Source: Lachnospiraceae bacterium AB2028 (GTDB lineage Bacteria; Bacillota; Clostridia; Lachnospirales; Lachnospiraceae). Taken from it: a stretch of 59,725 nucleotides of DNA. Under the pieces are notes generated by a model. That model was not told the origin of the DNA and did not search any database. It was given only the letters and a program-made list of their open reading frames with translations. The translations under genes and the position numbers were made by a program. Of the stretch, positions 20,860 through 59,725 are shown piece after piece. Every line of letters starts with the position of its first letter. Positions within the stretch are counted from its first letter, which is position 1. Where the stretch lies: NCBI GenBank assembly GCA_000621425.1, contig JHYJ01000017.1, positions 1 to 59,725 on the forward strand, read 5' to 3'.

Positions 20860-20877
20860 GAGCCTCTGTACCTCCCT

Positions 20878-23406: not shown

Positions 23407-23416
23407 ACAATAAACC

Positions 23417-25117: not shown

Positions 25118-25134
25118 ACACATTCACCTCTCTT

Positions 25135-25893: not shown

Positions 25894-25895
25894 TC

Positions 25896-27770: not shown

Positions 27771-27781
27771 TGATACGCTCC

Positions 27782-31898: not shown

Positions 31899-31899
31899 A

Positions 31900-32505
31900 T
31901 CAATCACCACCTAACGTTGCTTTGAGATAATCCCTATCTCCAATAAGTTCAATGTGTTCCTCAACTGCCGGATGGATCATCATCCTCTCGCAGATAATCA
32001 TCTTCCTCTCTCGTCTACCAAGTCCCGATTCAACCAAAATGTTGCGATATCCTTTTGTCAGGCATTTAAGAGTAAACTCTCCCCATTTTGAAACAATCAG
32101 ATCAACCTGCTTTTTACTTTCAAAGAATCCATCAAAATCATCTATTGAAAGATAATTTCTTTCCTGATTCATTAGTGCATCTCTATATTTCTCAAATAAA
32201 AAATCAAAGAAAAGGGAATCTGTTTTTGCAATGGCATACACCAAAATATATTTTGACGTTGCTACATCACCGTTATAAAACTCTTTCAGTAAATACTCAT
32301 CTAAGGAGCAAAGCCTATTGAAAACTACATTTGTAACCTCACGTCTTCTCTCCAATGATTCTATTTCAACATAATTGTCTTCATAGCATTTCTTATATAG
32401 TTCATCACGATCCAGTCCGTCCAACATCAGTTTTGCTATTTTCTTAGCAACTTGATATTTAAAAGGCGTCTTCTTTATAGCAGATGAATATGGTTTTTTG
32501 TTCAT
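31900..32505 (-). CDS. brxA: BREX protein BrxA (DUF1819)
   Basis: A 201-residue BrxA with the family's usual start (YSSAIKKTPFKYQVAKKIAK) and VVFNRLCSLDEYLLKEFY. BrxA is a small winged-helix DNA-binding protein and the first gene of the type 1 BREX operon. GGAAGG precedes the ATG and a promoter lies 55 bp upstream. No BrxR-type regulator gene was seen beside it. Confidence 0.9.
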   Translation of the reverse strand: MNKKPYSSAIKKTPFKYQVAKKIAKLMLDGLDRDELYKKCYEDNYVEIESLERRREVTNVVFNRLCSLDEYLLKEFYNGDVATSKYILVYAIAKTDSLFFDFLFEKYRDALMNQERNYLSIDDFDGFFESKKQVDLIVSKWGEFTLKCLTKGYRNILVESGLGRRERKMIICERMMIHPAVEEHIELIGDRDYLKATLGGD

Positions 32506-45535: not shown

Positions 45536-45610
45536 TTGTTACCTCCTGTTCTTCCTATCCCGCCTCCGGGAATAAATCGATTGATACCTTAAGATTCCGT
45601 ATGAAGGTCT

Positions 45611-45650
45611 TAAAACGCAGGAAGGAAGCGGATTTTCCGCCTCCCCCTGC
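45611..45650 (-). terminator. Hairpin terminator or attenuator after Maff2
   Basis: On the minus strand GCAGG, an inner GCGGA-aaa-TCCGC stem and CCTGC fold into a long GC-rich hairpin followed by GTTTTA. It lies 26 bp after the Maff2 stop and before the VirB6-like gene, so it may set the ratio between the abundant small protein and the downstream channel genes. Confidence 0.55.
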
Positions 45651-45675
45651 CATAAACCCTTTCATACCCTGCGGA

Positions 45676-45891
45676 TCAACCGAAGAGTCCGGAAAGCAAG
45701 GGAACAAGGGTGATTCCGATGAGTGCAACGCCACCACCGGCCATGAGCTGCTTCATGCCCTGGCTCTTTGCACCCGGGTTATCATTACCATAGCCCTCCA
45801 TGAGGTTGATCGCTCCCCAAATGCCAAGACCTGCACCAAGTGCAACTACGAGTGTCTGAAGTACGCCTACTGCGCTGTTGAAAAATTCCAT
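45676..45891 (-). CDS. Maff2 family small membrane protein
   Basis: A 71-residue protein with two hydrophobic helices (LQTLVVALGAGLGIWGAINL and LMAGGGVALIGITLVPLLSG) around a hydrophilic loop, GYGNDNPGAKSQGMKQ, characteristic of Maff2 proteins in Clostridia ICEs. The size and fold recall VirB2-like pilin subunits, though no pilus is known. GGAGG precedes the ATG. Confidence 0.88.
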   Translation of the reverse strand: MEFFNSAVGVLQTLVVALGAGLGIWGAINLMEGYGNDNPGAKSQGMKQLMAGGGVALIGITLVPLLSGLFG

Positions 45892-46053
45892 GATTAAATT
45901 CCTCCGTTTTGTTTTTTGTTATTGGTTTCTTTTTTGCAGAGCCCCCTTTCCCCGGGCCACCGGCCAAGCGTCCCGGTGAATGTCCCTGCGGTTCCATATT
46001 CAGTTGTCGTTTCCGGGGATCCGCCGACAGACCCTCCGGTATGCGCGCATAAG
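45892..46053 (-). other. GC-rich leader upstream of Maff2
   Basis: About 160 bp with several GC-rich potential hairpins (gggacgcttgg, ccggtggcccggggaaagg). It lies between the VirD4 terminator and the Maff2 ribosome site. Read as an untranslated leader or small-RNA region; a frame spanning it on the minus strand (46090-45785) has an implausible composition. Confidence 0.35.
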
Positions 46054-46083
46054 AAAAAGCCCTCAGGAATTTCCCGGGAGCTT
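46054..46083 (-). terminator. Rho-independent terminator after VirD4
   Basis: AGCTCCCGGG and CCTGAGGGCT pair (with two G-U pairs) around aaatt, followed by TTTTTC, 26 bp after the VirD4 stop on the minus strand. It would separate the coupling-protein transcript from the channel genes. Confidence 0.65.
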
Positions 46084-46108
46084 GTTTCACAAAATTGTTT
46101 GTGGAGCG

Positions 46109-47866
46109 CTACTCCACTTCGACGACTTCGTATTCATCGTCAGCTTTCAGTATTAAGTTGTGATTCAGGAACTTCTCGATATCGAACCAGTTCCTTTTGT
46201 CCGCATCCGCAGTGAGCGGATACTTCGGGTGCTGTGTCAGATCATACTTGCTTGAAAGAAATGGTCTTACACCACGGATCTGCACGATACATTTACCGCC
46301 GTCCATGACCGCCAGTTCATCGATGCTCATAAGATCGTGACCAAGTTTCTGGTAGTTCATGTTATAGCTCTGGCTCGTTCCCCTGGTCTCTCCCGTGTTA
46401 TACATATCTATTGTCTCTTTACCCAGAGTTGAGTTGAGGTCCTTAAGGGTCGTCTGTTCAGAGCCTCCAAGGAATATCTGACTGTCACAGTTGCCTATGA
46501 TCGTGTCAGCGTTATCCTTGTATATCGCTTTTAACTGCGATTTTGCCTGCAGCACCAGGGCTGCAGAAATCTCACGGCTTCGGATCGTTGCCATGAGTTT
46601 TTCCAGGTTCGGGATCTGTCCGATATTCGCCGCCTCATCTATAAGGCACCGCACATGTACCGGCAATCTCCCGCCGTAAACATCATCTGCCTTTTCGCAT
46701 AACAGATTAAATAACTGCGTATACACCATACTGATCAGAAAGTTGAAAGTCGCATCCGTATCCGACATGATCAGGAACAGTGCTGTCTTCCTATCTCCCA
46801 GTGTATCAAGCTCCAGTTCATCGTATGCCGTGATCTCTCGAAGCTCCTTTATATCGAAGGGAGCAAGTCTTGCACCGCAGCTCACGAGTATGGATTTGGC
46901 CGTTTTTCCGGCACTTAATTTATATTTGGCATACTGACGTACCGCAAAGTGATCCGGTTCTCTTTCAGCCAGCTCCTCAAACATAAGATCCACGGGATTC
47001 TTGAACTCTTCATCATCCTCCCTGACCTCCATCGCATTTATCATTTCAAGCAGCGTTGAGAAGTTCTGCTCCTCTTCCGGCGCCTCATAATGGATGTATC
47101 CGATCAGTGCGGAATACAGAAGTTTTTCTGCTTTCTCCCAGAACTCATCCCCGCCTTTTCCTTCACCTTTCGTATTGGCGATCAGCGTTGTGACAAGCTT
47201 TAAGATGTCTTTTTCGTCATGCACATAAGCAAATGGGTTGTAATGCATACTCTTTTTGAAATTGATCGTATTAAAGATCTTCATCCGGTATCCGTTCTTT
47301 ACAAGTGCATTCCCGATCTCGTTTACAACCGTTCCTTTTGGATCGGTAACTACATAAGATGAATGCATCTGCAGAAGGTTTGGTTTGATGAAAAATCTCG
47401 TTTTACCTGAACCGGAACCACCTACAACCAGGGTATTTTTGTTCCTGGCATATTTCGGTTCTTTCGGCCTGCCGTTCATGGTAAGTCTCTCGCTCTGCGA
47501 AAGAATGACATTATTCTCAAACACAGGATCCATATACGGCTCTATATCCGAGTGGTTTCCCCACCTGGCAGAACCATATTCCTGGTTATGCCGGAACTTC
47601 TTTGCATTCTTGCTTTTCATGTACACCGCAAGCCTTAATATCCCGCCGATTGCAAGACCGACTAAAAGATCTACAGGATTAAAGCTTGGCATCGGATTTG
47701 AAAATGCTGCACCGAAACACCCGTCCAGCACCAGGCTCTGCACCTTTTCAGATGCATTTGTTCCCGATGCTATACGGAAAGCTTCTCCGATATTGGTTGC
47801 AAAAAGCCCCACGATCACATAAGGGATATTGAGGATTATGAGTTTCTTGAGATTCTTTGTTTTCAC
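46109..47866 (-). CDS. VirD4-like type IV coupling protein
   Basis: A 585-residue ATPase that brings the relaxase-DNA complex to the channel. An N-terminal membrane segment (residues 9-22, and 60-75) is followed by Walker A GGSGSGKT at 149-156, a TraG/TraD-type RecA core with RCLIDEAANIGQIPNLE, and TIIGNCDSQIFLGG. The start is GTG overlapping the PcfB stop (GTGA), so the two are coupled, as for PcfB and PcfC in enterococcal plasmids. Confidence 0.93.
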   Translation of the reverse strand: MKTKNLKKLIILNIPYVIVGLFATNIGEAFRIASGTNASEKVQSLVLDGCFGAAFSNPMPSFNPVDLLVGLAIGGILRLAVYMKSKNAKKFRHNQEYGSARWGNHSDIEPYMDPVFENNVILSQSERLTMNGRPKEPKYARNKNTLVVGGSGSGKTRFFIKPNLLQMHSSYVVTDPKGTVVNEIGNALVKNGYRMKIFNTINFKKSMHYNPFAYVHDEKDILKLVTTLIANTKGEGKGGDEFWEKAEKLLYSALIGYIHYEAPEEEQNFSTLLEMINAMEVREDDEEFKNPVDLMFEELAEREPDHFAVRQYAKYKLSAGKTAKSILVSCGARLAPFDIKELREITAYDELELDTLGDRKTALFLIMSDTDATFNFLISMVYTQLFNLLCEKADDVYGGRLPVHVRCLIDEAANIGQIPNLEKLMATIRSREISAALVLQAKSQLKAIYKDNADTIIGNCDSQIFLGGSEQTTLKDLNSTLGKETIDMYNTGETRGTSQSYNMNYQKLGHDLMSIDELAVMDGGKCIVQIRGVRPFLSSKYDLTQHPKYPLTADADKRNWFDIEKFLNHNLILKADDEYEVVEVE

Positions 47867-48363
47867 AGTTCTCTCTCCTTCCTCCTCTCCTTATTCTTGC
47901 GGGGCATGGAAGCAACTTTCTCTTTGAACTTTTTCAGTTTCTGCAGGATGCTCGGTTTCTCCTTTGCTGCTCTCTCCTTCTTCTTCGTCTGCTTTGCCGC
48001 ATACTCTTTCAGGATCTGTGTGATCGCATCAGCATCCTTCGCCTTAAAGAACACTGTGTACCTCGGCGGAACTGCTTCTTTGTCCTTAACTATCGCAAAA
48101 TCCACCCCGTACTTATTCGCGATCTTTTTGAAATCCTTTATACCGGAATCGCCGATGTCCATACTGGAAACGCCCTGTCCCTGTCCGATCAGTTTCTTCA
48201 CAGACTGCTTACCTTTAACATTTTCATGAGACACCTTTGCGACATCCCTTTTTCTCTGATGATGCCGGTACCAGGCATGCAGACCGCGGAGCAGTGTTCT
48301 CACCGTCACCTTTCCTGTCTGTATCGCCAGCTGTACCGACTTGTTTTCTACTTCCTCCTGCAA
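47863..48363 (-). CDS. PcfB family protein (DUF3801)
   Basis: A 166-residue basic protein starting with TTG (GGAAGTG before it) and matching PcfB by the region VQLAIQTGKVTVRTLLRGL and FKKIANKYGVDFAIVKD. In pCF10, PcfB helps load the relaxase on the coupling protein. It directly precedes and overlaps the VirD4 gene. Confidence 0.88.
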   Translation of the reverse strand: MQEEVENKSVQLAIQTGKVTVRTLLRGLHAWYRHHQRKRDVAKVSHENVKGKQSVKKLIGQGQGVSSMDIGDSGIKDFKKIANKYGVDFAIVKDKEAVPPRYTVFFKAKDADAITQILKEYAAKQTKKKERAAKEKPSILQKLKKFKEKVASMPRKNKERRKEREL

Positions 48364-48392
48364 TCTATCACTTCCTTTCCCGGGCTTTCATG

Positions 48393-48728
48393 CTATTCAC
48401 CGCACTCAAGCACACCTTCCAAAGTTGTAGGGATCACCTTCGAATGCTTAGCTACAGAAATATCCGCACGGACATCATCATTGATCTTCTTTCCGCAGAC
48501 CACGAGAAATCTCGCCCGCTTAAGTAAATCCTCCGACATCTCCCGGCGCTTCTTTTCTCCGTCAGGATCATCCTCTGCAATGATGCCGCTGAATGCCAGC
48601 ACCGGACACAACGGAAGATATCCTGCCTTTACAAGCTCGCCGCAGTATTTCCTTGCCTGGTCCTCCGCATCCACGCGGTTCTTGCTCCACGCTGCCGTTA
48701 CATATGCTCTTGGTATTGTTCTGCTCAT
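48393..48728 (-). CDS. DUF7768 / nucleoside 2-deoxyribosyltransferase-like protein
   Basis: A 111-residue protein starting SRTIPRAYVTAAWSKN, with ARFLVVCGKKINDDVRADI, a Rossmann-like alpha/beta fold recalling DUF4406/DUF7768 proteins related to nucleoside deoxyribosyltransferases. The ATG at 48728 has an AGGAGG site. Similar genes occur in the same place in many Clostridia ICEs. Function unknown. Confidence 0.7.
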   Translation of the reverse strand: MSRTIPRAYVTAAWSKNRVDAEDQARKYCGELVKAGYLPLCPVLAFSGIIAEDDPDGEKKRREMSEDLLKRARFLVVCGKKINDDVRADISVAKHSKVIPTTLEGVLECGE

Positions 48729-48738
48729 ATCGCGCCTC

Positions 48739-49149
48739 CTAAAACAGTTCCAGAGCAGAGAACTCCTGCCCGTCGCCAACGATCGTGATCAGCCTGCTCT
48801 CGAATTCTCCGGCTGCTTCCTGAAATTCCTCGCCTGCCAGTAATGAAAGCTTTTCATATTCATACTTCAGGATGATTGCAGATCCGATAAAGCATTTGCC
48901 GGTTTCGAAATTGATTATCTTATCACCGTTGAACAATGCGATATAATTTGAACTTCCGAGATATTCTCCATGTTCCACTTCACTCAGTCTTTCCAAAATG
49001 GAATTCGCTTCAAAAGCATCCGCTATCCTGGATTTACCATTCGTTCCGATGATCAGGGCTCCTTCCTCTTTCTTCTTATAACTGTTTTCTGTCCAAACAG
49101 CTCCGTCATTTACCGGATCCAGTTTGATAGTTACATTCAGTGTCTTCAA
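48739..49149 (-). CDS. Uncharacterised 136-residue protein
   Basis: Taken from a TTG at 49149 nine bases after AGGAGG. The longer reading from 49191 has no such site and overlaps the replication gene. Contains KLDPVNDGAVWTENSY and GKCFIGSAIILKYEYEKL. Family unknown; it is placed between the replication initiator and the DUF7768 gene. Confidence 0.6.
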   Translation of the reverse strand: MKTLNVTIKLDPVNDGAVWTENSYKKKEEGALIIGTNGKSRIADAFEANSILERLSEVEHGEYLGSSNYIALFNGDKIINFETGKCFIGSAIILKYEYEKLSLLAGEEFQEAAGEFESRLITIVGDGQEFSALELF

Positions 49150-49165
49150 TTTATATTTCCTCCTG

Positions 49166-50068
49166 TTAGATTCTTCCTTCGGCCCTGTCATTATTCACCC
49201 AGGCCTGATAGTAGCTCTGCATGGTGAGCGGAGCATTGTACAGTGCTGCCAGCAGGTACTGTTTGATATTTCGTACCTTGCTTCCGTTATTCTTCATACA
49301 GCCGAGAACATACTCGATATGCATGAAATCAAGCTTCATAAACTGAGACCTTACAACTGCAGCCGGTTTATCATCCCCGGCAATACGGATGTACTTCCTT
49401 TTTGAACAGATCGCATCAAGCATGAGATCTATGATTGCATCGATAGTCTCCCTGTCATACGGATAACGCTCACACAGGATATCCTTCTCCAGATGGTCAC
49501 AGAGATATAAATAGTATGCGTTTCTCTCATCCATACCCTCATCCTTATCCTCCTGGGATTTAGAGTTATCCACATTCCTTCCGGATAGGATAGGATCAGT
49601 CTTATTAATCTCAGTATTAATATTATTAGTCTTATTAGATTCCCGATCGCGGTTGTCCTGAATTCCCATTTGCGAATCTCCGGTATTCCCATTCTGGGAA
49701 TCACGGAATTCCCGGTTTGGGAATCGTGTAAAGTTTTTCACGTAGATGACCGTCGGTTTGCATAGACCCTGTTTCCGGCGTTCAATAAGTCCGAAGGAAT
49801 CAAGTTCCTTTAAAAGTCTGCACGCTTTTGTGTTGCCGCAGCGCAGGGCTTTCTTTACCGCTTCGATCGTATAGTAGACATACACATGGCCTTCATCATT
49901 GACCCAGCCATGCTCCCTGGAAAGACCGATCCGGTCCAAAAGCAGTCCATATAAAACCTTTGCTTCCGTTGAAAGCGATTCAAACATCTCTTCCGTAAAA
50001 AGCAGCTTGGGGATTCTGTAAAATGAATAGCTTTCTGACTGCTCCTCATAAAAGTAGTCAAACCACAT
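49166..50068 (-). CDS. Replication initiator, RepA_N type with DUF6017
   Basis: A 300-residue protein. Residues about 15-110 are the RepA_N winged helix (YSFYRIPKLLFTEEMFESLS, AKVLYGLLLDRIGLS), then a disordered linker (NNINTEINKTDPILSG), and from 170 a DUF6017/DnaD-like part (CMKNNGSKVRNIKQYLLAAL). Such proteins initiate replication of Firmicutes plasmids; in an ICE it suggests replication of the excised circle. The ATG at 50068 is chosen over a GTG at 50077 that overlaps the preceding stop. Confidence 0.85.
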   Translation of the reverse strand: MWFDYFYEEQSESYSFYRIPKLLFTEEMFESLSTEAKVLYGLLLDRIGLSREHGWVNDEGHVYVYYTIEAVKKALRCGNTKACRLLKELDSFGLIERRKQGLCKPTVIYVKNFTRFPNREFRDSQNGNTGDSQMGIQDNRDRESNKTNNINTEINKTDPILSGRNVDNSKSQEDKDEGMDERNAYYLYLCDHLEKDILCERYPYDRETIDAIIDLMLDAICSKRKYIRIAGDDKPAAVVRSQFMKLDFMHIEYVLGCMKNNGSKVRNIKQYLLAALYNAPLTMQSYYQAWVNNDRAEGRI

Positions 50069-50073
50069 AGCTG

Positions 50074-50283
50074 TCACGCTTTCTTTGCGATCTGCTTCTT
50101 AGCCTTCCTGTGCTCATCCATGATCTTTTTATAGCAGGGAAAACAGAATGATCTGCTGCGCCCATAAGGACAGCTATTCCTGCAGTTTTTAGGATTCTCA
50201 GCCGGACTTTCTTTTCCGATTGCCGATGAATAAGGCTTTTCAAATGCAGTGGACTTAACCATCTGCTCATTTATCTCTGTCAT
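50074..50283 (-). CDS. Small cysteine-containing protein next to repA
   Basis: A 69-residue protein with NCRNSCPYGRSRSFCFPCYKK, likely a metal-binding knuckle, and a basic tail. AAAGGA lies before the ATG at 50283. The stop codon overlaps the alternative GTG start of repA. It begins with the same SSAIGKE type of text as BrxA starts (YSSAIKK), which is probably coincidence. Function unknown. Confidence 0.6.
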   Translation of the reverse strand: MTEINEQMVKSTAFEKPYSSAIGKESPAENPKNCRNSCPYGRSRSFCFPCYKKIMDEHRKAKKQIAKKA

Positions 50284-50303
50284 TTTCAGTTCCTTTCCCG
50301 GCA

Positions 50304-50344
50304 AAAGAAAAGCGCTCGGCCAAGTCTCCTTAGACCGAACGCTT
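50304..50344 (-). terminator. Rho-independent terminator after DUF5688
   Basis: On the minus strand AAGCGTTCGG and CCGAGCGCTT pair around taaggagacttgg and are followed by TTCTTTT. It lies 33 bp after the DUF5688 stop, so DUF5688 is transcribed as its own unit. Confidence 0.6.
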
Positions 50345-50376
50345 CAAAAGCCGATCACTATTTGTTTATGCTAAGA

Positions 50377-51453
50377 TCAGAGAGCTTCGCCGCCCTTTGC
50401 CTTCGCACCTTTGTCAATGGTTTCCTTCTTGGGAGTCTTTGCGACTTCCTCTTTCTTTGCCTTCAGCTCACCGAGGACGGAGCCTTTCTCCTCCTTCTCG
50501 GCAGTTTCCTCACGCTGCGCCTGGCGCTCCACGAACTTCTCACCAAGCTCGAAGATCTTCGCCTGGGAGTCATAGTGGTAAACGCTGTCGGTAAGCTTAT
50601 CCGCAGGAGCAACCTGAGTCGCATTGACTTCCTTTACCATGTTCTCAAGATCCTTAAGATCCATCTTTCCGTTGTCAGGAACGATCAGAACCTCGTGGAT
50701 GCTCGAAGGTAGAATGAAGAAGTCTCCGCCGACTCTCTCAGATGCCTGGTCCATGAAATCCTGGTAAGCAAGAACGCCGGCGCCGTGTACCTTATCAGGA
50801 ACAGTAGCAACAAACATCTGCTCGTCCTTCGGATCCACAGGAAAGATTCCCAGCATTTCGGCCTGGTCAAAGCCCATCATTTCTGCCATGACCTCGCTCA
50901 TGCCCTTGATCTCCGCGGGCTTGATCTGAGGTGCATTCTCCATCGCATCTGCGTGAAGCTGCTCGGGAGTAACGCCCATGTTCTCAAGGATCTGGTTGGT
51001 TACCAGGATAGATGCTCGTCCCTCTTCATCAGAACTTAAGATGAAGCGGTACACAACCGCCATGTCTTCCATGTTCTGATGAGGTACGTTCTCAAGCATC
51101 TCCTTGTTAGCCTCCGCAGAAACAACTTCCATAGCAAGCTTTTCCTTCATCTGGCTGTAATCGGTAAGCGCAGCCACATCAATGTCCGGTCTCTGCTCGA
51201 TCCCTCTGCTGATGGTCTCAACTGCCTTACCGACCACACTGTCGTAAGGAGTGCCGTCCTGCACCGCATCGTAGAACTTCTCAAGTGACATGTTCACGCC
51301 GATGTTGCTTCCTTCAGGAGTAACGGTGATAGCCTCATAGCTTTCATTAAGCTTGTTGACTTCGTTTACGCTGACCTTCACATCTGCGCCCTGCTCTGCA
51401 AGTCTGTCCTTCACATCCGCGACAAACTGTTCTTTGAAATTTTCGTAATCCAT
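50377..51453 (-). CDS. DUF5688 family protein
   Basis: A 358-residue protein with the family layout: FKEQFVADVKDRLAEQ, QNMEDMAVVYRFILSSDEEG, and FFILPSSIHEVLIVPD. The tail is Lys/Glu-rich. It is common in Lachnospiraceae ICEs and its role is unknown, possibly a cytoplasmic regulator or scaffold. The start at 51453 has AAAGGAT upstream; a longer frame from 51525 has no ribosome site and includes a predicted hairpin. Confidence 0.8.
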   Translation of the reverse strand: MDYENFKEQFVADVKDRLAEQGADVKVSVNEVNKLNESYEAITVTPEGSNIGVNMSLEKFYDAVQDGTPYDSVVGKAVETISRGIEQRPDIDVAALTDYSQMKEKLAMEVVSAEANKEMLENVPHQNMEDMAVVYRFILSSDEEGRASILVTNQILENMGVTPEQLHADAMENAPQIKPAEIKGMSEVMAEMMGFDQAEMLGIFPVDPKDEQMFVATVPDKVHGAGVLAYQDFMDQASERVGGDFFILPSSIHEVLIVPDNGKMDLKDLENMVKEVNATQVAPADKLTDSVYHYDSQAKIFELGEKFVERQAQREETAEKEEKGSVLGELKAKKEEVAKTPKKETIDKGAKAKGGEAL

Positions 51454-51523
51454 TTTTGTTTTATCCTTTCGCTTATTTGATGTAGGCTTCGGATCGTCAT
51501 CCTCGGCCTGGGTGAATGGCATC

Positions 51524-51571
51524 AAAAAAGCGCCAGGCTCACAACCTCTTTCGAAGTCATGATCTGACGCT
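51524..51571 (-). terminator. Terminator in the leader of DUF5688
   Basis: AGCGTCAG and CTGGCGCT pair across about 32 bases on the minus strand and are followed by TTTTTTG. It would end the RiPP-cassette transcript, or act as an attenuator for DUF5688. Confidence 0.55.
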
Positions 51572-51649
51572 CATCTTTGCCGGTATTCTTTTGCAAAAGA
51601 AAATGGACTCGGCGGCTCGGGTTTTTGTTTTCCCGTTCGCTTTGTCCAT
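51557..51649 (-). other. Possible 30-codon leader frame before DUF5688
   Basis: ATG at 51649, stop at 51557; the 30 residues start MDKANGKTKTRAAES. No ribosome site is visible. The frame ends inside the terminator stem, the arrangement of an attenuator, but this is speculative. Confidence 0.2.
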
Positions 51650-51691
51650 TGTAAATATATCACATTGATTTCAAGAAAAAAATACTCAAAC

Positions 51692-51735
51692 GGTACTATC
51701 TTCGTACTATTTCGGTACTATTTTGGTACTTTTCC
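51692..51735. repeat. Four tandem 11-bp repeats (iteron-like)
   Basis: ggtactatctt, cgtactatttc, ggtactatttt and ggtacttttcc lie head to tail with an exact 11-base period at 51692-51735. The period equals one helical turn, so a protein binding every copy would contact one face of the DNA. The array overlaps the end of the small basic gene and lies upstream of DUF5688 and repA. Confidence 0.65.
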
Positions 51736-51921
51736 TATCATCTTTCCCAAAAGTTTCCATACGCCTTGCTGTTTTTTTGCTTTCTCATTAGGCTCTTCCT
51801 TTTTTGTTTTCTCTACCTCATGGCTGTAACCCTTGAAATCATCATCATATAGATCACTAAGCTCATCCTTACGCTGTTTAATATAATCCATTCTTGAAGA
51901 ATAATTCCGATATCGCATCAT
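51718..51921 (-). CDS. Small basic protein after the UvrA-like gene
   Basis: A 67-residue highly charged protein (MDYIKQRKDELSDLYDDDF, GVWKLLGKMIGKVPK) with a possible amphipathic C-terminal helix. The start is uncertain: a GTG at 51930 or the ATG pair at 51921/51918. Family unknown. It lies directly after the UvrA-like gene, before a terminator, so it may be the last gene of the peptide cassette. Confidence 0.5.
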   Translation of the reverse strand: MMRYRNYSSRMDYIKQRKDELSDLYDDDFKGYSHEVEKTKKEEPNEKAKKQQGVWKLLGKMIGKVPK

Positions 51922-51930
51922 AGCCCTCAC

Positions 51931-54066
51931 TTATTTGAGTATCAAACCATGCAGAATGTCTTTTTTGTTTTCTATTTGAATCCACTGAGAAAAGTATTCT
52001 TCAATTCCAGCTGTATGATCAATTACTAGCAGTGTTTTATTCTTTTCTCTAATACTATCCAGGTACTTAGCCACAGCATCTATTTCGGTATTACTCAGCC
52101 CTTTAAATGGTTCATCTACTCCAATAACTTTCGCTGTAGATTTTGAAGCCTTCAATATCTTTATTCGAATATTTTCACCACCTGACAATGTACTGGTAGC
52201 CTGTCCTATATGCAAGTGACCCAACATAATACTCGATGCAGCTGAACACATTCCCGAAATGGATTTATCTATATCTGCAAAGAATTCTGAAGCCTCATCT
52301 ATAGTCATCTTCCAAACATCAAAAATAGATAATCCATTTATCTTATATTTTTTTAGAATCTTGTTAAAACCAGTTCCCTCGCATTCCTTACATTCGAGAC
52401 TCATACTCTGATGATAGTCATCCCCATATTCGATATATCCTGCACCATTACATACAGGGCACATACCTTCATTTCCTGTAAGATTTGAGAAAAACTTCTT
52501 ATCCTTCTTATGCTTCTTCGCATATAAATCTGATATTTTTGTCGATATATCCAAGACCGTTGCAACACATGAGTTCTTATTGCCAAGAAGAGGTTTCTGA
52601 TTAATATATAAATAGCTCTCAAAGAACTGAGGCAAATATTCTCTGAGCAAAGTAGACTTGCCTACACCAGAATAACCCGTAATCAGATTCATGCACTCAT
52701 TCGCAACTGAAACATCAACCCCCTTGTATTTATATATGGTACTATTAAGCTTTATGGGCATTTGTTTTCCTGCCGAAATTGGTTTGAACTTTTTGATCTC
52801 ACTCTGCTTCCTTAAAAACTTATTTACATCAATCAGTTTTCCACCGGCATTGCCACCTTTTTCGCCCAACGCAATTATCTGGTCTGCCACCTTATAAAAG
52901 GTGTCTCCGTGATCAACCAAAACAACGGTATGCTTTTTTGCTAATAAAACCACATTATCAAAGATTGTTTTTCTTTCATCACCTGACAATCCAGCTAATG
53001 GCTCATCAAGAACTATAATCAAATCAGAGAGTTGTGTATTGAACACCTGAACCATTCTTAATCTCTGAAGTTCTCCACCGGATAAAGTTGGAATAGCTCT
53101 GTGCAAACACAGATGCCCCAGATTCAATTCTACTGCTTTATCAATAAAGGATTGAAGATTCTTTACAGTGAACTTAAGACGATCATCCGAAATTTTCTTG
53201 GACAGTTTCTGCACAACACCCTTTAGCGTGGCAAAATCAGTAGTCATGAAATCACCAATGGAAAGCCCTTGAACTTTATAATCATCAAACTGCTTTCCGT
53301 ATTTCTTTCCATGACAGCATTCACACTCAAATTCGGAATAATACGCTTTCCCAATCCCACAATTCGGGAGCATTGGAGTTCCGGTAAGAACACCATAAAA
53401 CTTAGAAGTCCTTCTGGAAAAAGCATTTGTTTTTTTATATCTCACAGAATACTTTGCAGAACTCTCCCCGTACAACAGCAACTGTCTTTCTTTATCATTC
53501 AGATCTCTAAATGTCTTATCACTGTCTATTCCTTGATCTTCACAATACAGTTCAATCATCTGAGAGAAAAAATCTTTATATCTGTTCCAACACTTGAACG
53601 GATCTTTTTTCAGTGGCACATTAAAATCAACTATCTTGCTATAATCCAGCTGATTAACATATCCCAATCCATGACAATGCTCACATAAATTGCTTTCCTT
53701 ATTGAGCACAAAAAAATCCTCTGAAAGTCCGAGTGATACTGCATATATTAAACCAATGCTTCTGTTCAGCCCAAAATAAGTTCCTATCGTAGAGCGCATA
53801 TTATTATTATGGTTCGATTGCTTTATAGGTACTGCGGCCACCATATTAGAAAACGCCCTAACCTTATAAGACGGTTCACTAATCTCATCCGCAAACATAG
53901 CCATAAATTCATGTTGACCAATTTGCGCAATGGTATCATAGGCCAATGAAGATTTACCACTGCCTGAAGGTCCAATAATTAGATTGATGCCTTTCTTGAT
54001 AATATGGACATCAATGTTTTTTAGATTATTTGTTTCTATACCTTCAATAACAATGTTATCTTTCAT
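51931..54066 (-). CDS. UvrA-like tandem ABC ATPase of the peptide cassette
   Basis: A 711-residue protein built like UvrA. NBD1 has Walker A GPSGSGKS at 32-39, zinc ligands CEHC at 128-131 and CECC near 248-251, signature LSGGE at 328-332 and VLDEP. NBD2 has Walker A GYSGVGKS at 464-471, zinc ligands CPVC at 536-539 and CKEC at 559-562, signature LSGGE at 627-631 and GVDEPFKG. It is about 230 residues shorter than true UvrA, mostly missing the UvrB-binding and insertion regions, so it should not do normal excision repair. UvrA-like proteins of this kind protect drug-producing Streptomyces (DrrC). Its start overlaps the rSAM stop by one base, so a linked role in self-protection or maturation is likely. 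Confidence 0.85.
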   Translation of the reverse strand: MKDNIVIEGIETNNLKNIDVHIIKKGINLIIGPSGSGKSSLAYDTIAQIGQHEFMAMFADEISEPSYKVRAFSNMVAAVPIKQSNHNNNMRSTIGTYFGLNRSIGLIYAVSLGLSEDFFVLNKESNLCEHCHGLGYVNQLDYSKIVDFNVPLKKDPFKCWNRYKDFFSQMIELYCEDQGIDSDKTFRDLNDKERQLLLYGESSAKYSVRYKKTNAFSRRTSKFYGVLTGTPMLPNCGIGKAYYSEFECECCHGKKYGKQFDDYKVQGLSIGDFMTTDFATLKGVVQKLSKKISDDRLKFTVKNLQSFIDKAVELNLGHLCLHRAIPTLSGGELQRLRMVQVFNTQLSDLIIVLDEPLAGLSGDERKTIFDNVVLLAKKHTVVLVDHGDTFYKVADQIIALGEKGGNAGGKLIDVNKFLRKQSEIKKFKPISAGKQMPIKLNSTIYKYKGVDVSVANECMNLITGYSGVGKSTLLREYLPQFFESYLYINQKPLLGNKNSCVATVLDISTKISDLYAKKHKKDKKFFSNLTGNEGMCPVCNGAGYIEYGDDYHQSMSLECKECEGTGFNKILKKYKINGLSIFDVWKMTIDEASEFFADIDKSISGMCSAASSIMLGHLHIGQATSTLSGGENIRIKILKASKSTAKVIGVDEPFKGLSNTEIDAVAKYLDSIREKNKTLLVIDHTAGIEEYFSQWIQIENKKDILHGLILK

Positions 54067-55463
54067 TAAGCCTTTCCTTCCTTAATAATTCTATACAAAT
54101 CCTTAATTAAGAAATCCAAAGTCACCTTTGAATGAGTGCAGAAACGCTCATCCAAATCATGAATGGTATTTCCCTTCTTTAAATGCATAGCATTTATAGG
54201 GCATCCTCCACCACATATTCCAAGTGCCGAACAATCTTGACATTCCTCTTTATTGATTGGTGTAAGCTGAGACCATTCAATGAAATCTTTGTGCTTTGTA
54301 GCATCAAATTGCACATCATCAACAGTAGTCACAAAATACTGCTTGTTATGTAAGCATCCATGACAAATACCAACTTGTCCGTTTGGAGCAATTACAATCT
54401 GCCCTCCACCAGTTGCTGCACAGTCAGAGAAATATACCTGAGATTTTGTAAATGCCTTTAGTTTTCGCATTATTCTATCTTCGTATATTCCCTTTTTTCT
54501 TAGTTCTACAAATTCCTCAATAATAAACTTTGCTGCAGCTTCATTATACTCCTGTGGAATTATAAAATTCTCGTCTGACATCATTATATTAAATCCGAAC
54601 GATTTAACTCCATAGTTATCGACCAAATTTAAGATGTCCTTTGTATTCTTTATAGTTTCTTCGCTAAGGGTAACTGACAAAGATACATCAATGCCAATTT
54701 CCTTACACATATCTAGTGTTTGAAGGATCTTATTGAATACATTATTACCTGCGACATCAACACGCATTCCATTTGCTTTTTCAGTAAACCCATCTACTGA
54801 AATAGCTATAGATACTCCCAGTTCCTTCAGTTTCAAAGCACGTTCTTTGGTTAAGAGAAGTCCATTTGATACCATAGACATCTCCGTATTTCTAAGGCTC
54901 GAATCTGTATTTCTTAAATCATTTATCTTTCCTGCTATATAAACGAGTACATCATAGTTTACCAATGGTTCACCACCATAAAAAATTATAGCAGGTTTAT
55001 TCTCATCTGTATCTAATCCAGACAGTTTTATCTGTCTGGCGAAGAAATCTAAAGCCTTATCTGCAGTTTCCTTTGACATGTTTTCCAACACAAAGCTGCT
55101 TCTCTTTTTTGCATCATTGTTCCCCAAAAAGCAATACTTACATGCCAGGTTGCATTGTTCGCTTGTTATCATATAGCAAACATTTATTGCTGGTGCAGGA
55201 ATCCTGCTTTTAACAAACGCTAGCACTTTTTCATCGTCTTCTTCAGAATGATTTAGGATCTTATACTTTACTAATTCAGATACTTCATTTTTAATCTTTT
55301 CCGGTGCATCATCGTAATCATTGCAAAAAGGACTTACAAGCCATGCCTGTAAGTCCTCATAAGCCTCTTTTGTCAAATACACTGGTTTCATTCTGAGGGA
55401 GTGATATAACGCAACTGCTTCTTCCAAATCAAAAACATGAGCATAGCGCGACATTCTTACCAT
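54066..55463 (-). CDS. Radical SAM/SPASM peptide-maturation enzyme
   Basis: A 465-residue enzyme. Residues 90-310 are a radical SAM barrel with the 4Fe-4S motif C104-x3-C108-x2-C111 (CNLACKYC), GGEP near 164 and a SAM-binding SVDG. Residues 340-445 are a SPASM domain with eight cysteines (C348, C367, C370, C408, C411, C417, C421, C442) able to hold two more clusters. The N-terminal 85 residues may bind the leader peptide (RRE-like, inferred). SPASM enzymes of this type make thioether or carbon cross-links in Cys-rich peptides; four such precursors lie just upstream. Best guess: sactipeptide or ranthipeptide-type maturase. GGAGG precedes the ATG at 55463. Confidence 0.88.
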   Translation of the reverse strand: MVRMSRYAHVFDLEEAVALYHSLRMKPVYLTKEAYEDLQAWLVSPFCNDYDDAPEKIKNEVSELVKYKILNHSEEDDEKVLAFVKSRIPAPAINVCYMITSEQCNLACKYCFLGNNDAKKRSSFVLENMSKETADKALDFFARQIKLSGLDTDENKPAIIFYGGEPLVNYDVLVYIAGKINDLRNTDSSLRNTEMSMVSNGLLLTKERALKLKELGVSIAISVDGFTEKANGMRVDVAGNNVFNKILQTLDMCKEIGIDVSLSVTLSEETIKNTKDILNLVDNYGVKSFGFNIMMSDENFIIPQEYNEAAAKFIIEEFVELRKKGIYEDRIMRKLKAFTKSQVYFSDCAATGGGQIVIAPNGQVGICHGCLHNKQYFVTTVDDVQFDATKHKDFIEWSQLTPINKEECQDCSALGICGGGCPINAMHLKKGNTIHDLDERFCTHSKVTLDFLIKDLYRIIKEGKA

Positions 55464-55500
55464 TCTATCTCCTCCTATGCAAAAACCATTATCTACTTAC

Positions 55501-55671
55501 CTACTTTTCTACTTCCCATTCCATCTGGTGGTTATTATTTATTCCTCTACAATTGCAAGCGCATCTACCCGCACAATTTACACAATTTGCGCAGTTGCAC
55601 TTTGCCATAACAACCATATCATCTGATATTTTGCCAAACATTTTCTCATACATTTCCAATGATCCAATCAT
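55501..55671 (-). CDS. Cys-rich precursor peptide 4
   Basis: A 56-residue peptide read from the ATG at 55671, with a perfect AGGAGG seven bases upstream. Leader: IGSLEMYEKMFGKISDDM; core CNCANCVNCAGRCACNC (seven Cys), then a tail ending MEWEVEK. Shares YEKMFG and MAKC with peptides 2 and 3. It sits 38 bp before the radical SAM gene and is the precursor nearest to the enzyme. Confidence 0.8.
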   Translation of the reverse strand: MIGSLEMYEKMFGKISDDMVVMAKCNCANCVNCAGRCACNCRGINNNHQMEWEVEK

Positions 55672-55876
55672 ATCTTGCCTCCTAAAGGTCTACTCCTTAT
55701 ACCCTTCTCTCTATTCAATCAAACAACATCTATCACCTTAGAATAGCCCCTACAATAACAAGCATACACACAACTACATACTATACAGCAACATTTGTCT
55801 TTACATTAACAATGTTCTAAATACGGCCATGCATGATATCTTTGTTTTGTTGCAACCATAGAGTCATTCTCTATAA
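55672..55876. other. Spacer between precursor genes 4 and 3
   Basis: About 205 bp, AT-rich. No further seven-Cys frame, terminator or second promoter was recognised. Confidence 0.3.
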
Positions 55877-56032
55877 TCAATCCCATTCAATTTCATCGTT
55901 TTCAGGAATATTACGACACGAGCATCCACATGTACACGAATTACATGCAACGCACGCACAACGAGCCATCACTACAGATAAATCAGCTATTTCGCCAAAC
56001 ATCTTTGCATAATCAACAACATTTGCGCTCAT
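55877..56032 (-). CDS. Cys-rich precursor peptide 3
   Basis: A 51-residue peptide from the ATG at 56032. Leader MSANVVDYAKMFGEIADL, core CACVACNSCTCGCSC (seven Cys), tail with Pro-Glu-Asn and EIEWD. Nearly identical to peptide 2 in the Cys pattern and in YAKMFGEI. Ribosome site GAGAGGAAA. Confidence 0.8.
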   Translation of the reverse strand: MSANVVDYAKMFGEIADLSVVMARCACVACNSCTCGCSCRNIPENDEIEWD

Positions 56033-56080
56033 AAATTTTCCTCTCTTTCTCCTTTGCACTTGTTAACTGCAACAAATAAA

Positions 56081-56236
56081 TTACCACTCAATGTCATCCA
56101 TATCTTCAGGTATATTTCTGCATGAGCACGCACACACACATGAATTGCATGCAACACAAGCACACTTTGCCATCGTATCAACCATATCAGATATTTCGCC
56201 GAACATTTTTGCATAATCTATCTTAGTTGCACTCAT
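56081..56236 (-). CDS. Cys-rich precursor peptide 2
   Basis: A 51-residue peptide from the ATG at 56236. Leader MSATKIDYAKMFGEISDM, core CACVACNSCVCACSC (seven Cys), tail ending DDIEW. The ribosome site GGGAGG lies nine bases upstream; longer frames over this region lack one. Adjacent to peptide 1 with four bases between stop and start. Confidence 0.8.
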   Translation of the reverse strand: MSATKIDYAKMFGEISDMVDTMAKCACVACNSCVCACSCRNIPEDMDDIEW

Positions 56237-56240
56237 ACCA

Positions 56241-56405
56241 TTATACCTCCCAATCCACATCTGCAATGACTCCACCAGAGCAAGAGCAACGGCAGTTACA
56301 CATACACCCAGTACACTGAGATACACACTTTGCTGCGGAAACCATAACTTCCTCAGTGATGTTACCTAACATTTTTTCATAATCAGTCTTTTCGTAACTA
56401 ATCAT
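56241..56405 (-). CDS. Cys-rich precursor peptide 1
   Basis: A 54-residue peptide from the ATG at 56405, first of four tandem precursors. Leader with DYEKMLGNI, core CVSQCTGCMCNCRCSC (seven Cys) followed by SGG and a tail ending DVDWEV. The core differs most from the others, so this is a distinct product. GGAGG precedes the start. The promoter is 62 bp upstream. Confidence 0.8.
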   Translation of the reverse strand: MISYEKTDYEKMLGNITEEVMVSAAKCVSQCTGCMCNCRCSCSGGVIADVDWEV

Positions 56406-56466
56406 AGACGCACCTCCATTTGTAAATGTTTGCACTTCGGTACAATAACTCTATACTACTGTATGC

Positions 56467-56495
56467 AGTTTAGCACCGAGCTTTTTTAAAGTCAA
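56467..56495 (-). promoter_or_regulatory. Promoter of the Cys-rich peptide cassette
   Basis: On the minus strand TTGACT (56490-56495) and TAAACT (56467-56472) lie 17 bases apart, with the first precursor ATG about 62 bp downstream. It is the only good promoter seen before the peptide genes, so the four peptides, the radical SAM enzyme and the UvrA-like protein are probably one transcript. Confidence 0.65.
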
Positions 56496-56781
56496 GCATT
56501 AACCAAAAATACCAAACATAGAGAAATGTTCACGAAATACATTATATTGTTGTTTTATAAACATTTATATACTATATATTGTGTTTATCGCCGAATTGTA
56601 AAATATTTGTTAAAAATGTCAAAAATCCGCGAAACCCTTTAAAATACTGGCTTTCATTAGGTTTTGTATATCACGTATTTTTTATATAATTAAAAAAGTC
56701 CTTAAACCTCTGATATTTCCTGGGTTTATCAAGATTCTCCCCCCTCTTTTTATTTCATCACCTATATAATTTCTTTGCAAA
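56496..56781. other. AT-rich intergenic region
   Basis: About 285 bp of low-GC sequence between the peptide-cassette promoter and the ParAB terminator. It has runs of T and A and no convincing gene. Such upstream AT-rich DNA could bind a global silencer or give an UP element; nothing more is visible. Confidence 0.35.
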
Positions 56782-56824
56782 CAAAAGCCCCGTGACTTCC
56801 AACAATTTTATTAGAAATCACGGG
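56782..56824 (-). terminator. Rho-independent terminator of the ParAB operon
   Basis: CCCGTGATTTC and GAAGTCACGGG pair (one mismatch) around a 14-base loop on the minus strand, followed by GCTTTTGTTT. It follows the membrane-protein stop by 12 bp and insulates the Cys-rich cassette from upstream transcription. Confidence 0.8.
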
Positions 56825-56835
56825 ACACTACGCCT

Positions 56836-57120
56836 TCAAATACCTTTTATCTTCTCTCTCAGACTGTCTATCGTTTCCTCCAGTATCACCACCAAAAAAA
56901 GTATACCAATCACTGCAACACCAACAACAAAGAAGATAAAGAGATGTGTCCATCTTTGCGTGACCAGGCAAAATACCAATGCGAATCCGACATATAGGAT
57001 GAAAAATCCAATCACCGCCGATGTCAGATTTATTGCCAAATGGATTGCTCCCTTCAGAAGCAGGAGCACCAGAGATACCGGTGTCAGAATAATCTTCAGC
57101 AATATTCTCAACATGATCAT
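56836..57120 (-). CDS. CD1845-type small membrane protein
   Basis: A 94-residue protein with two or three hydrophobic stretches (LKIILTPVSLVLLLLKGA, AINLTSAVIGFFILYVGFAL, FIFFVVGVAVIGILFLVVI) and a basic C-terminus. Such proteins sit after ParB in Clostridia ICEs. Function unknown. It overlaps the parB stop by four bases. Confidence 0.75.
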   Translation of the reverse strand: MIMLRILLKIILTPVSLVLLLLKGAIHLAINLTSAVIGFFILYVGFALVFCLVTQRWTHLFIFFVVGVAVIGILFLVVILEETIDSLREKIKGI

Positions 57121-58040
57121 GTTTTACCCTCCTCATCGTTCTGTTTCTTCCAGTCTTCAAGCAGCCTGAACAGCACATTCTCCATCTGTGGCTTAGTATA
57201 AAAAGTTGGGAAGTATTCTTGCAGTTTTTTCTTTGTGATCGTAATCTTCTGAAATCTGTGCCTTTCATCCCTCGGAGCATTCTCATTAAGGATCCGGATC
57301 AGCTCCATCTTAGTTATTGTATCGTTCTCCTTCAGATAATCCCTCAACGCAAAAATCTGAAATGTTTTGCAGATATCATTTTCCATCATGTAATCATAAA
57401 GCATTCCCTGAACCTTATGATCCAAAAATGAAACTTCTACAGCAGTTGCAAGTGCCAAAGTCTTTTTGTCCACAAGATCCAATATCTGCGGTATTAACTC
57501 AACCAAGCGCAAATACCGGTGGATCTGGCCTCTGCTTTCTCCGACTTCTTTTGCCAATTCCTGATCAGCCCACAGCTTCTTCCCGAATCGGGATGAAGTT
57601 AAATCATTTCTCTGACCTTGCCTTCGCATCGCCTCATACCGCATTTTATAAGCAAATGCTTTCTCACTCGGCAGTATTTCTTCTCTCTGCAGATTTGAAT
57701 CAACCATTGCCAGAACAGCTTCATCGTCATCATAGTTTTTTACGATTGCGGGAATCTTTTCCAAACCAATTTCTTTAACAGCATACAATCGGCGATGTCC
57801 AGAAATCATCTCATAAGTTCCGTCTTCTATCGGTCTTACTGTAACTGGAACAAGAACTCCGTTCATCATTATGCTTTCCACCAGTTCATGCATCTTGTCA
57901 TCGTCAAGGACCTTGAACGGATGATCCTTAAACGGGCGGATCCTTGCTACTTCTATCTCGTCGCATCCGGAAACAGAAGGCACGCACAATAATTCATCGA
58001 TCGAAGTCATCTTTATTTTCTGTCCTACTCTCTTAGGCAT
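57117..58040 (-). CDS. parB: ParB-family partition protein
   Basis: A 307-residue protein with the ParB N-terminal CTPase-type domain (VARIRPFKDHPF, GVLVPVTVRP, MISGHRRLYAVKEIG), a helix-turn-helix around AKEVGESRGQIHRYLRLVE and a C-terminal KorB-type region. It should load on a parS site and partner ParA to keep the excised element. It overlaps parA by eight bases. Confidence 0.92.
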   Translation of the reverse strand: MPKRVGQKIKMTSIDELLCVPSVSGCDEIEVARIRPFKDHPFKVLDDDKMHELVESIMMNGVLVPVTVRPIEDGTYEMISGHRRLYAVKEIGLEKIPAIVKNYDDDEAVLAMVDSNLQREEILPSEKAFAYKMRYEAMRRQGQRNDLTSSRFGKKLWADQELAKEVGESRGQIHRYLRLVELIPQILDLVDKKTLALATAVEVSFLDHKVQGMLYDYMMENDICKTFQIFALRDYLKENDTITKMELIRILNENAPRDERHRFQKITITKKKLQEYFPTFYTKPQMENVLFRLLEDWKKQNDEEGKT

Positions 58041-58815
58041 GGCAGGCCACCTCCTCTGTCAGATTCTTATAGGCAAGAGCCGCTTTCCCCTTCGGATCAT
58101 ACTCATAGATACTGGAACCCTCTGCGCTGATTTCTGCAGCCCTTACAGATAACGGAATCAATGTCTCAAATACCTTGATCTGATTTGAGTATGTATCAAC
58201 AACCAGCTTTGAAATGTCTTTGGCAAAGTTCGTCCTGGAATCAACCATGGTGAGAAGAATTCCTTCAATAGTGAGTTTCTTGTTGAGTCTCCTCTGTACG
58301 CGGCCGATTGTTTTGATCAGCTGCTCCAGACCTTTCACAGGAAGATATGCTGCCTGCACAGGGATCAGTACACTGTCCGAACAAGCTAGGGCATTTATCG
58401 TAAGCATTCCGAGAGACGGCATACAGTCAATGATCACATAATCATAATCCGACTTGATACATTCAACGAGGCTCCGCATCATCACTTCCCTGCTCATGGC
58501 ATTTACCAGATTGATCTCCAGAGTAGATAATTCGATATTTGCCGGGATCAGATCGACACCTTCCTCATGATGGATTATTGCATCAGATGAAAAAAACTCC
58601 GTCTCTTCCATGATTCCAGTCAACAAAGTAGCAAGCGTGACTTCCATTCCATCCGGCTCACGATATCCGAGACTGATCGTAAGCGAGCCCTGAGGATCAC
58701 CGTCGATGAGGAGAACTTTCTTTCCTTCTTTGGCAAGTCCGATGCCAAGATTTACTGCAGTAGTGGTCTTTCCGACTCCGCCTTTCTGATTAGCTACCGA
58801 GATTACTTTACACAT
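58033..58815 (-). CDS. parA: ParA-family ATPase
   Basis: A 260-residue Walker-type ATPase. The deviant Walker A KGGVGKTT is at 11-18, with DGDPQGSL as A' and a Walker B in YDYVIIDCMPSLG. Used with ParB for partition of the replicating excised circle, or to regulate transfer. It starts 14 bp after the DUF6462 gene with GGAGG. Confidence 0.94.
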   Translation of the reverse strand: MCKVISVANQKGGVGKTTTAVNLGIGLAKEGKKVLLIDGDPQGSLTISLGYREPDGMEVTLATLLTGIMEETEFFSSDAIIHHEEGVDLIPANIELSTLEINLVNAMSREVMMRSLVECIKSDYDYVIIDCMPSLGMLTINALACSDSVLIPVQAAYLPVKGLEQLIKTIGRVQRRLNKKLTIEGILLTMVDSRTNFAKDISKLVVDTYSNQIKVFETLIPLSVRAAEISAEGSSIYEYDPKGKAALAYKNLTEEVACHA

Positions 58816-58829
58816 AACCGATTCCCTCC

Positions 58830-59099
58830 TTAGATATCTTCCGGATCATCCGCACACATAAGCTCGATATACTCATCCAGCTTCTCCGTGTTCACAAGAA
58901 CGATCCTCTTGATGTGATAGACTGCTTTTGCTTCCTTTGCCAGCTCCATAAAGGTATGAATGCCCATAGAATAAAGCACTGCACCTTCTTTATAACGGAC
59001 CCACTTCTTCTTGCCGATAGAAGCAGCTTCCTTTATCCGTTTTTCCTCTTTGCTTTCATTGACTTCCTTATTTTCCTGTCCATTATTTCTCTTAAACAT
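58830..59099 (-). CDS. DUF6462 protein, second copy
   Basis: An 89-residue protein from the ATG at 59099 (GGAGG eight bases upstream). The C-terminal half (WVRYKEGAVLYSMGIHTFME and VLVNTEKLDEYI) is closely related to the protein at 1761-1982, with a basic N-terminal extension. It overlaps the next gene by eight bases. Perhaps a DNA-binding regulator for ParAB or for excision. Confidence 0.75.
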   Translation of the reverse strand: MFKRNNGQENKEVNESKEEKRIKEAASIGKKKWVRYKEGAVLYSMGIHTFMELAKEAKAVYHIKRIVLVNTEKLDEYIELMCADDPEDI

Positions 59100-59382
59100 C
59101 TTCGATACCTCCGTCTCCTTCTTCCGCGCTCTCCATGAACGCATCAACTTTTGCAAGATCGATCACAACATTCTTCTTGATCCGGATATTTGCTCCGGCT
59201 GCTTTTGCAAGTTTTACAAACGTGTAATAGTTCATTGAATAGAGCCTGGCTCCCTCGGCATAAGAAACATAAAGTTTCTTTCTCCCGACAAGATACTTTT
59301 CAAGATCCGGTCCCTTCTGTAGTTCCCTGATCCTGGCCCTCTCTTTTGCCTTTTCACGTTCTTCATTTGTCATTTTGGGCAT
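59092..59382 (-). CDS. DUF6462 protein, third copy
   Basis: A 96-residue protein with YVSYAEGARLYSMNYYTFVK and KKNVVIDLAKVDAFME, the same fold but diverged. It is the first gene from the right end and could respond to the integrase. AAGGAAA precedes the ATG. Confidence 0.72.
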   Translation of the reverse strand: MPKMTNEEREKAKERARIRELQKGPDLEKYLVGRKKLYVSYAEGARLYSMNYYTFVKLAKAAGANIRIKKNVVIDLAKVDAFMESAEEGDGGIEDV

Positions 59383-59432
59383 CTTTGATTTCCTTTCCTA
59401 AGTGACAGACTACGAGTTACATCCCAAGCACG

Positions 59433-59475
59433 AAAAAAGGCACCCACTTCAGTATTTCTACTAAAGTAAGTGCCT
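59433..59475 (-). terminator. Terminator at the right end, read inwards
   Basis: AGGCACTTACTT and AAGTGGGTGCCT pair (two mismatches) around a 14-base loop on the minus strand and are followed by six T. It stops transcription that enters from the flanking chromosome before it reaches the parA operon, or serves as a leader attenuator. Confidence 0.65.
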
Positions 59476-59717
59476 GTTTAGCCATCCAAAAGCTGTTCCT
59501 TTGGACTCCCTGTTTTCAGTTTAAATCGTGGTCTACAACAAGCTCCGTCGCTTTCCACGAACGATTTTTCACTTCTTACATCAGCTTCCGTAATCTTCCG
59601 ACACGCTTGTCAGAAAACGCGTTTTTTAAGGTCGGTCCGTCTGTATCCAGGATTGTCCGTAGAACGTCGGAACGCGTCGTCTGATGTCGCTGAGCGTCAT
59701 TAGGATAACGATTTTAG
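59476..59717. other. Right end of element, probable integrase arm region
   Basis: No gene. Many short tccg/cgtc-type motifs occur; the 13-mer tccgtctgtatcc at 59636-59648 matches 36-48 in all but one base. A probable arm-binding region for Int, and perhaps DUF6462 or RHH proteins. Confidence 0.4.
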
Positions 59718-59725
59718 AGTCGGGA
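59718..59725. repeat. Right terminal 8-bp direct repeat, candidate attachment core
   Basis: agtcggga, identical to positions 1-8, at the last eight bases. See the left copy for the reading as an att core or a circular overlap. Confidence 0.5.

Follow-up and report, generated by a model that had tools for sequence, protein, structure and literature searches.

Radical SAM/SPASM enzymes carry a CxxxCxxC motif together with a set of SPASM cysteines, and PapB, CteB and TigE belong to this class, as does the enzyme examined here. It is encoded in a stretch of 59,725 nucleotides from Lachnospiraceae bacterium AB2028 (GenBank assembly GCA_000621425.1, contig JHYJ01000017.1), referred to below as the window, where its gene lies between four genes for cysteine-rich precursor peptides and a gene for a UvrA-like ATPase, a relative of a protein that senses DNA damage. 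The content and order of these genes are conserved, and the ATPase and SPASM motifs are intact. The cassette probably makes chemically modified cysteine-rich peptides, i.e., ribosomally synthesized and post-translationally modified peptides (RiPPs).

The closest described relatives of the ATPase by architecture are the class II UvrA self-resistance proteins, such as Ecm16 and DrrC, which as here are double ATP-binding cassette (ABC) ATPases with no UvrB-binding domain, an insertion domain and zinc modules 2 and 3 (PMC10192343). The window lineage differs from these in forming a separate deep branch, in having a RiPP cassette as its partner, and in that no drug is known for it. UvrA-like genes within 40 kb of RiPP clusters have been reported before: in a genome-mining study built on uvrA-like genes, the 642 actinobacterial clusters include a RiPP class (PMC10413001). 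No description was found, in the literature searched, of a radical SAM RiPP with a UvrA-like gene as its conserved neighbor.

Precursor peptides and cassette organization

An earlier note, made from the window sequence, had described four tandem peptides of 51–56 residues with seven cysteines each, upstream of a radical SAM/SPASM gene with a CNLACKYC motif, and the coordinates confirm this (Table 1). The leader motif Y.KM(F/L)G, the AKC or ARC ahead of the core and the C-terminal tryptophan are likewise as it described them, and each peptide gene has an ATG start with a Shine-Dalgarno-like stretch upstream. All genes of the cassette are on the minus strand, the four peptide genes being followed by the radical SAM/SPASM gene and then the UvrA-like gene. 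The range given in the earlier note took in the peptides and the enzyme but left out the UvrA-like gene, and the inclusion of this ATPase changes the likely function.

The note had also proposed a radical SAM RiPP cassette, without placing the peptides in a family. In a hidden Markov model search against RiPP families, three of the four precursors exceeded the 45-bit cut-off of TIGR04135, with the fourth below it, so a named family exists, called FibroRumin by NCBI. Matches to this model and to TIGR04136 for the enzyme support the cassette well beyond chance. At an E-value of 1e-5, TIGR04135 gave 33 matches in 15 genomes or records, all inside the cassette and 30 of them over the cut-off; 13 of these genomes or records have exactly two, one has three, and that of the window has four. 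Peptides without a radical SAM partner, named in the earlier note as contrary evidence, were absent from this set. A type B query against a plasmid collection matched only a Campylobacter plasmid.

Fifteen loci were compared, namely the window, 13 further loci (numbered with an L) and this Campylobacter plasmid, and in all of them a type A frame is followed by a type B gene and then the enzyme. The window holds one A, two B and a divergent B-like copy. The expectation of four modified peptides overlooks this pairing, in which one type A and one type B precursor form the basic unit. In L004, L006, L007, L008 and L010, no extra cysteine-rich peptide is encoded in the forward frames between enzyme and ATPase.

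The precursor cores are nearly invariant across phyla. In the aligned rows the consensus is CxxQCTGCMC(N/S)C(R/K)CSC for type A and CACVxCNSC(T/V)C(A/G)CSC for type B, and mean pairwise identity in the non-cysteine columns of the core was 0.84 for type A (12 rows) and 0.91 for type B (16 rows); the leaders gave 0.43 and 0.58, respectively. Absent from this alignment are the divergent extra peptides of L002 and the window, together with the type A peptides of three loci (L008, L009 and L011) in which no ATG precedes the leader motif in the frame. The type A copy of L008 has no first core cysteine and may be decayed. Bacteriocins in arms races usually diversify, and the FibroRumin cores contrast with this because they vary so little.

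The CxC-rich cores, with seven core cysteines kept in every aligned row (12 of type A, 16 of type B), would suit metallothionein-like peptides that bind metal and that the enzyme merely tunes. The near invariance of the other core residues, however, is unexpected for a metal scavenger, and no metal transporter or regulator recurs in the neighbor clustering of the 15 loci. As this explanation also leaves the radical SAM enzyme and the UvrA-like partner unaccounted for, we consider it very unlikely.

A promoter shared by the four peptide genes, as the earlier note had suggested, was not borne out, since promoter-like sites in positions 51600–57100 did not exceed chance (17 against 21.0 in shuffles; the top site, matching 11/12, is 56622–56595). 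Terminator-like sites in the scanned region numbered four, against 2.3 in shuffles. A terminator-like hairpin of 18 pairs followed by a T-rich stretch, at 56787–56826, precedes the cassette on the minus strand.

Radical SAM/SPASM maturase

The maturase scores 773.9 bits to TIGR04136, for which the cut-off is 400, and matches the radical SAM domain PF04055 at 70.1 bits. The cysteines of its radical SAM and SPASM motifs (C104, C108 and C111, as well as C348, C367, C408, C411, C417, C421 and C442) are invariant in 14/14 aligned maturases. The comparison with Clo7bot drawn in the earlier note fails, at 73.8 bits against the TIGR04334 cut-off of 600, and Clo7bot membership was rejected. Assignments as a SCIFF maturase (102.4 bits; TIGR03974 cut-off 425) and as a PapB-type ranthipeptide maturase (130.6 bits; NF047865 cut-off 340) were also rejected, the PapB model being the second-best for this enzyme, yet far under its cut-off.

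A RiPP recognition element consists of three strands and three helices at the N-terminus, and residues 8–87 of the maturase model contain three strands and three helices in order, in a model whose mean predicted local distance difference test score (pLDDT) is only 56. Profile matches in the PDB were to 8vpo (TigE) and to the thioether-forming enzyme 5wgg, which we take to be CteB. Because the structure model is poor, its fold matches carry little weight. Family membership and the intact motifs make it very likely that the radical SAM enzyme matures A and B, and thioether chemistry is likely.

Precursors 1–3 and the enzyme of the window exceed curated FibroRumin cut-offs, and the Campylobacter plasmid is annotated with the same family names, its UvrA-like gene as 'hypothetical protein'. 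The NCBI FibroRumin product names, which alone were compared, are silent on the two precursor types and on the UvrA-like gene. The names FibroRumin, TIGR04136 and TIGR04135 were absent from the literature searched.

Hosts of the loci include Lachnospiraceae, Erysipelotrichaceae, Bacillus, Synergistaceae, a spirochaete and Coriobacteriales, besides the Campylobacter plasmid. Further searches for the maturase gave matches in 1/397, 4/180, 2/346, 1/345, 1/128, 1/127 and 1/130 genomes, all of them being the window or one of the 13 further loci except two divergent Synergistia enzymes, so that these genomes held no additional canonical FibroRumin maturase. This sparse occurrence, with enzymes 62.8–86% identical to that of the window across phyla, points to horizontal transfer. 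The Synergistia maturases (L046 and L047) score 416 bits, a little above the TIGR04136 cut-off, and are 40–41% identical to the window's; they sit directly after a second radical SAM gene and possibly belong to a different two-enzyme system. A phage origin of the maturase was rejected, there being no homologue in a phage collection at E 1e-40 and none in a single-protein scan of IMG/VR. A wider profile scan gave 20 loci at just 21–31% identity.

UvrA-like ATPase

By tblastn, a UvrA-like gene lies 3′ of the enzyme in 12/13 of the further loci, with gaps of up to ~160 bases, the exception being L005, where the contig ends inside the enzyme; it is also downstream of the enzyme on the Campylobacter plasmid. 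The gene is incomplete in L002 (cut by the contig end) and L007 (running into N after ~145 residues), and an internal stop interrupts it in L009. Over 11 loci, enzyme and ATPase distances agree, with a Mantel r of 0.88 that was reached in 0/5000 permutations. All 13 lineage rows have no UvrB-binding domain and keep the insertion domain, zinc modules 2 and 3, and two ATPase sites. In 299 genomes of the phylum, with three candidates scored per genome, only the window ATPase exceeded 1000 bits (1234.9) among the matches listed, the next being 391.0. A match to PADLOC mad3 (143.8 bits) was taken as a generic UvrA/ABC match.

Among 40 of 625 plasmid rows, the best ATPase matches after Campylobacter were on Acinetobacter johnsonii pXBB1-8 (304 bits, 31.0%) and Moraxella osloensis pNP7-2 (291 bits, 28.8%), the following row scoring 271 bits. 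Both plasmids resemble the window in encoding a short cysteine-rich peptide (63–66 residues), putative modifying enzymes and then a UvrA-like ATPase, which groups in the same lineage (support 100/100). They differ in that two ThiF-family proteins replace the radical SAM enzyme, and their ATPases are 29–31% identical to that of the window. The peptides have no NCBIfam or Pfam match at E 0.1 and occur in the plasmid collection at E 0.01 in these two records only, and a ThiF protein scan of IMG/VR gave no match. No exporter is annotated in these operons, in plasmid gene tables that are incomplete. The Acinetobacter operon directly follows the BREX-1 gene brxL.

In a tree of 28 rows, the 11 FibroRumin and two ThiF ATPases split from three class I and 12 class II-like proteins (support 100/100), three of the latter 12 falling nearer class I. 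An approximately unbiased (AU) test likewise rejected a grouping of the ThiF ATPases with nine class II proteins (p 1.4e-7). If the tree grouping holds, two modification chemistries would share one UvrA-like lineage. The branches are long and the groups were picked once the tree was known, so the separate lineage may reflect long-branch attraction.

Table 1. Genes of the window cassette and the related plasmid operons.
Feature	Position	Strand	Remarks
Type A precursor peptide, 54 aa	56241..56405	-	Cysteine spacing 3,2,1,1,1,1; TIGR04135 67.5 bits
Type B precursor copy 1, 51 aa	56081..56236	-	Cysteine spacing 1,2,2,1,1,1; TIGR04135 69.9 bits
Type B precursor copy 2, 51 aa	55877..56032	-	TIGR04135 67.7 bits
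Divergent B-like precursor, 56 aa	55501..55671	-	Seven cysteines, spacing 1,2,2,3,1,1 counted by eye; TIGR04135 38.1 bits
Radical SAM/SPASM FibroRumin maturase, 465 aa	54066..55463	-	CNLACKYC; TIGR04136 773.9 bits
UvrA-like double ABC ATPase without UvrB-binding domain, 711 aa	51931..54066	-	ATG overlaps the radical SAM stop
ThiF plasmid operons	L051 3526-8121, L052 3550-8154		

Genomic neighborhood

Neighbor clustering covered open reading frames of at least 80 residues at the 15 loci (positions 45463–59725 in the window), the flanks being short in L002 and L003 and on one side in L005, L006, L009, L010 and L013. No gene besides the enzyme and the ATPase was common to at least three of the 15 loci, other such clusters being antisense frames of these two; clusters of just two members comprise, among others, precursor frames, antisense frames and genes resembling ParA or ParB. 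Among 40 selected neighbors, Pfam scans found no peptide exporter and no C39-type peptidase, and the single ABC transporter set seen, in L007, occurs with a phosphonate-binding protein.

Many of the studied cysteine-rich radical SAM RiPPs are antimicrobials or signals, and the product could accordingly be a ranthipeptide-like bacteriocin that is secreted, with the host's general machinery handling export and trimming and the ATPase serving as a generic immunity or repair factor. Unlinked exporters would escape the neighbor scans, and several loci have little flank. However, across the 15 clustered loci the trio has no dedicated transporter or peptidase as a recurring neighbor, and the cores are without arms-race-like diversification, making this explanation unlikely.

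Defense genes lie near some loci, namely Abi_2 in L001, AbiL in L008, AbiEi in L011, and BrxF and BrxC in L013. Of 112 neighbors from 11 loci scanned with PADLOC, matches were to 81 models, the 25 models listed including BrxC, AbiD, AbiLi, AbiEi, a type II methyltransferase and SoFic, with one protein given per model and no positions. Place-by-place scans found no defense family in L004 (TraG-type), L006 (MobA, resolvase), L007 (transposase) or L012 (integrase), nor in L005, L009 and L010, which are mostly housekeeping. In an informal control, nine annotated plasmid stretches with class II UvrA list no BREX or Abi product, and two list toxin-antitoxin genes; this contrast is only suggestive because sample and methods differ. 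On the Cytobacillus and Staphylococcus plasmids among the class II carriers (L056 and L061), the UvrA-like genes adjoin formaldehyde-detoxification genes (formaldehyde dehydrogenase, S-formylglutathione hydrolase and hexulose-phosphate synthase), suggesting that they counter DNA damage caused by formaldehyde.

The window carries BREX genes (BrxA, BrxB, BrxC, PglX in pieces, PglZ and BrxL) at 18832–32505, ~19 kb from the cassette, and we read the two as parts of one element. From the list of open reading frames, judged by eye, together with a ParB match and BREX, we take the window to be an integrative and conjugative element. PglX is in two pieces, 25896–27770 matching the N-terminal half and 23417–25123 the C-terminal half of the same model, and a 252-residue frame at 25135–25893 resembles by eye an alternative C-terminal piece; switching of specificity is possible. 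At 8963–13773, two proteins match the PADLOC candidate system PDC-M27 (PDC-M27C 392.2 bits, PDC-M27B 97.2 bits).

The fixed cores, the joint travel of enzyme and ATPase, the defense genes near some loci, and the fact that no exporter or protease recurs in the neighbors clustered or scanned would also fit modified A and B acting as a cofactor or damage-sensing element of the ATPase, the complex acting on foreign or damaged DNA with no toxin involved. Precursor copy number, however, varies (2, 3 or 4), and we know of no precedent, so we regard this as rather unlikely.

Proposed function

We tentatively favor, as plausible though short of probable, an intracellular two-peptide RiPP that acts on DNA, with the UvrA-like ATPase as self-protection. 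This reading best accounts at once for cores that hardly vary, a constant UvrA-like partner whose insertion domain is conserved, and neighborhoods in which no exporter recurs. A horizontally moving module would produce the two-component modified peptide inside the cell, where the radical SAM/SPASM enzyme would bind type A and B precursors through their shared leader and cross-link them, most likely as cysteine thioethers. The mature peptides would then bind or damage DNA, and the ATPase may sense product-loaded host DNA through its insertion domain and clear it using ATP, protecting the producer, by analogy with Ecm16 and echinomycin. The modification and its chemistry are inferred from the genes, as are the target on DNA and the protection of the host.

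Several points weigh against this. The product, its toxicity and its DNA binding are predictions, and the consensus cores have no aromatic residue. The ATPase lineage falls outside the class II clade, the AU test rejecting a grouping of the FibroRumin ATPases with nine class II proteins (p 0.0003). In the divergent Synergistia loci L046 and L047, the 4.3 and 3.1 kb examined gave neither a UvrA-like match at E 1 nor a convincing precursor. Additionally, the drugs in Table 1 of PMC10192343 for UvrA-like self-resistance are not RiPPs.

A more speculative extension, which we hold doubtful, is a chemical immunity module in which incoming DNA, from phages or other sources, would be attacked by the mobile RiPP pair inside the cell, whilst the UvrA-like ATPase clears the DNA of the host. 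If true, the unrelated chemistries of radical SAM (FibroRumin) and ThiF (Moraxellaceae) would have come to the same lineage of UvrA-like antidote, one that at times adjoins BREX and Abi systems. RiPPs with a dedicated UvrA-like partner would indicate a class of peptides acting on DNA inside the cell, with a marker of the target built in, and the module is small, self-contained and mobile, and therefore directly testable. Chemical anti-phage defense is known from small molecules such as daunorubicin (PMC13250531), and the FibroRumin module, if defensive, would join such defense to the immunity carried by mobile elements.

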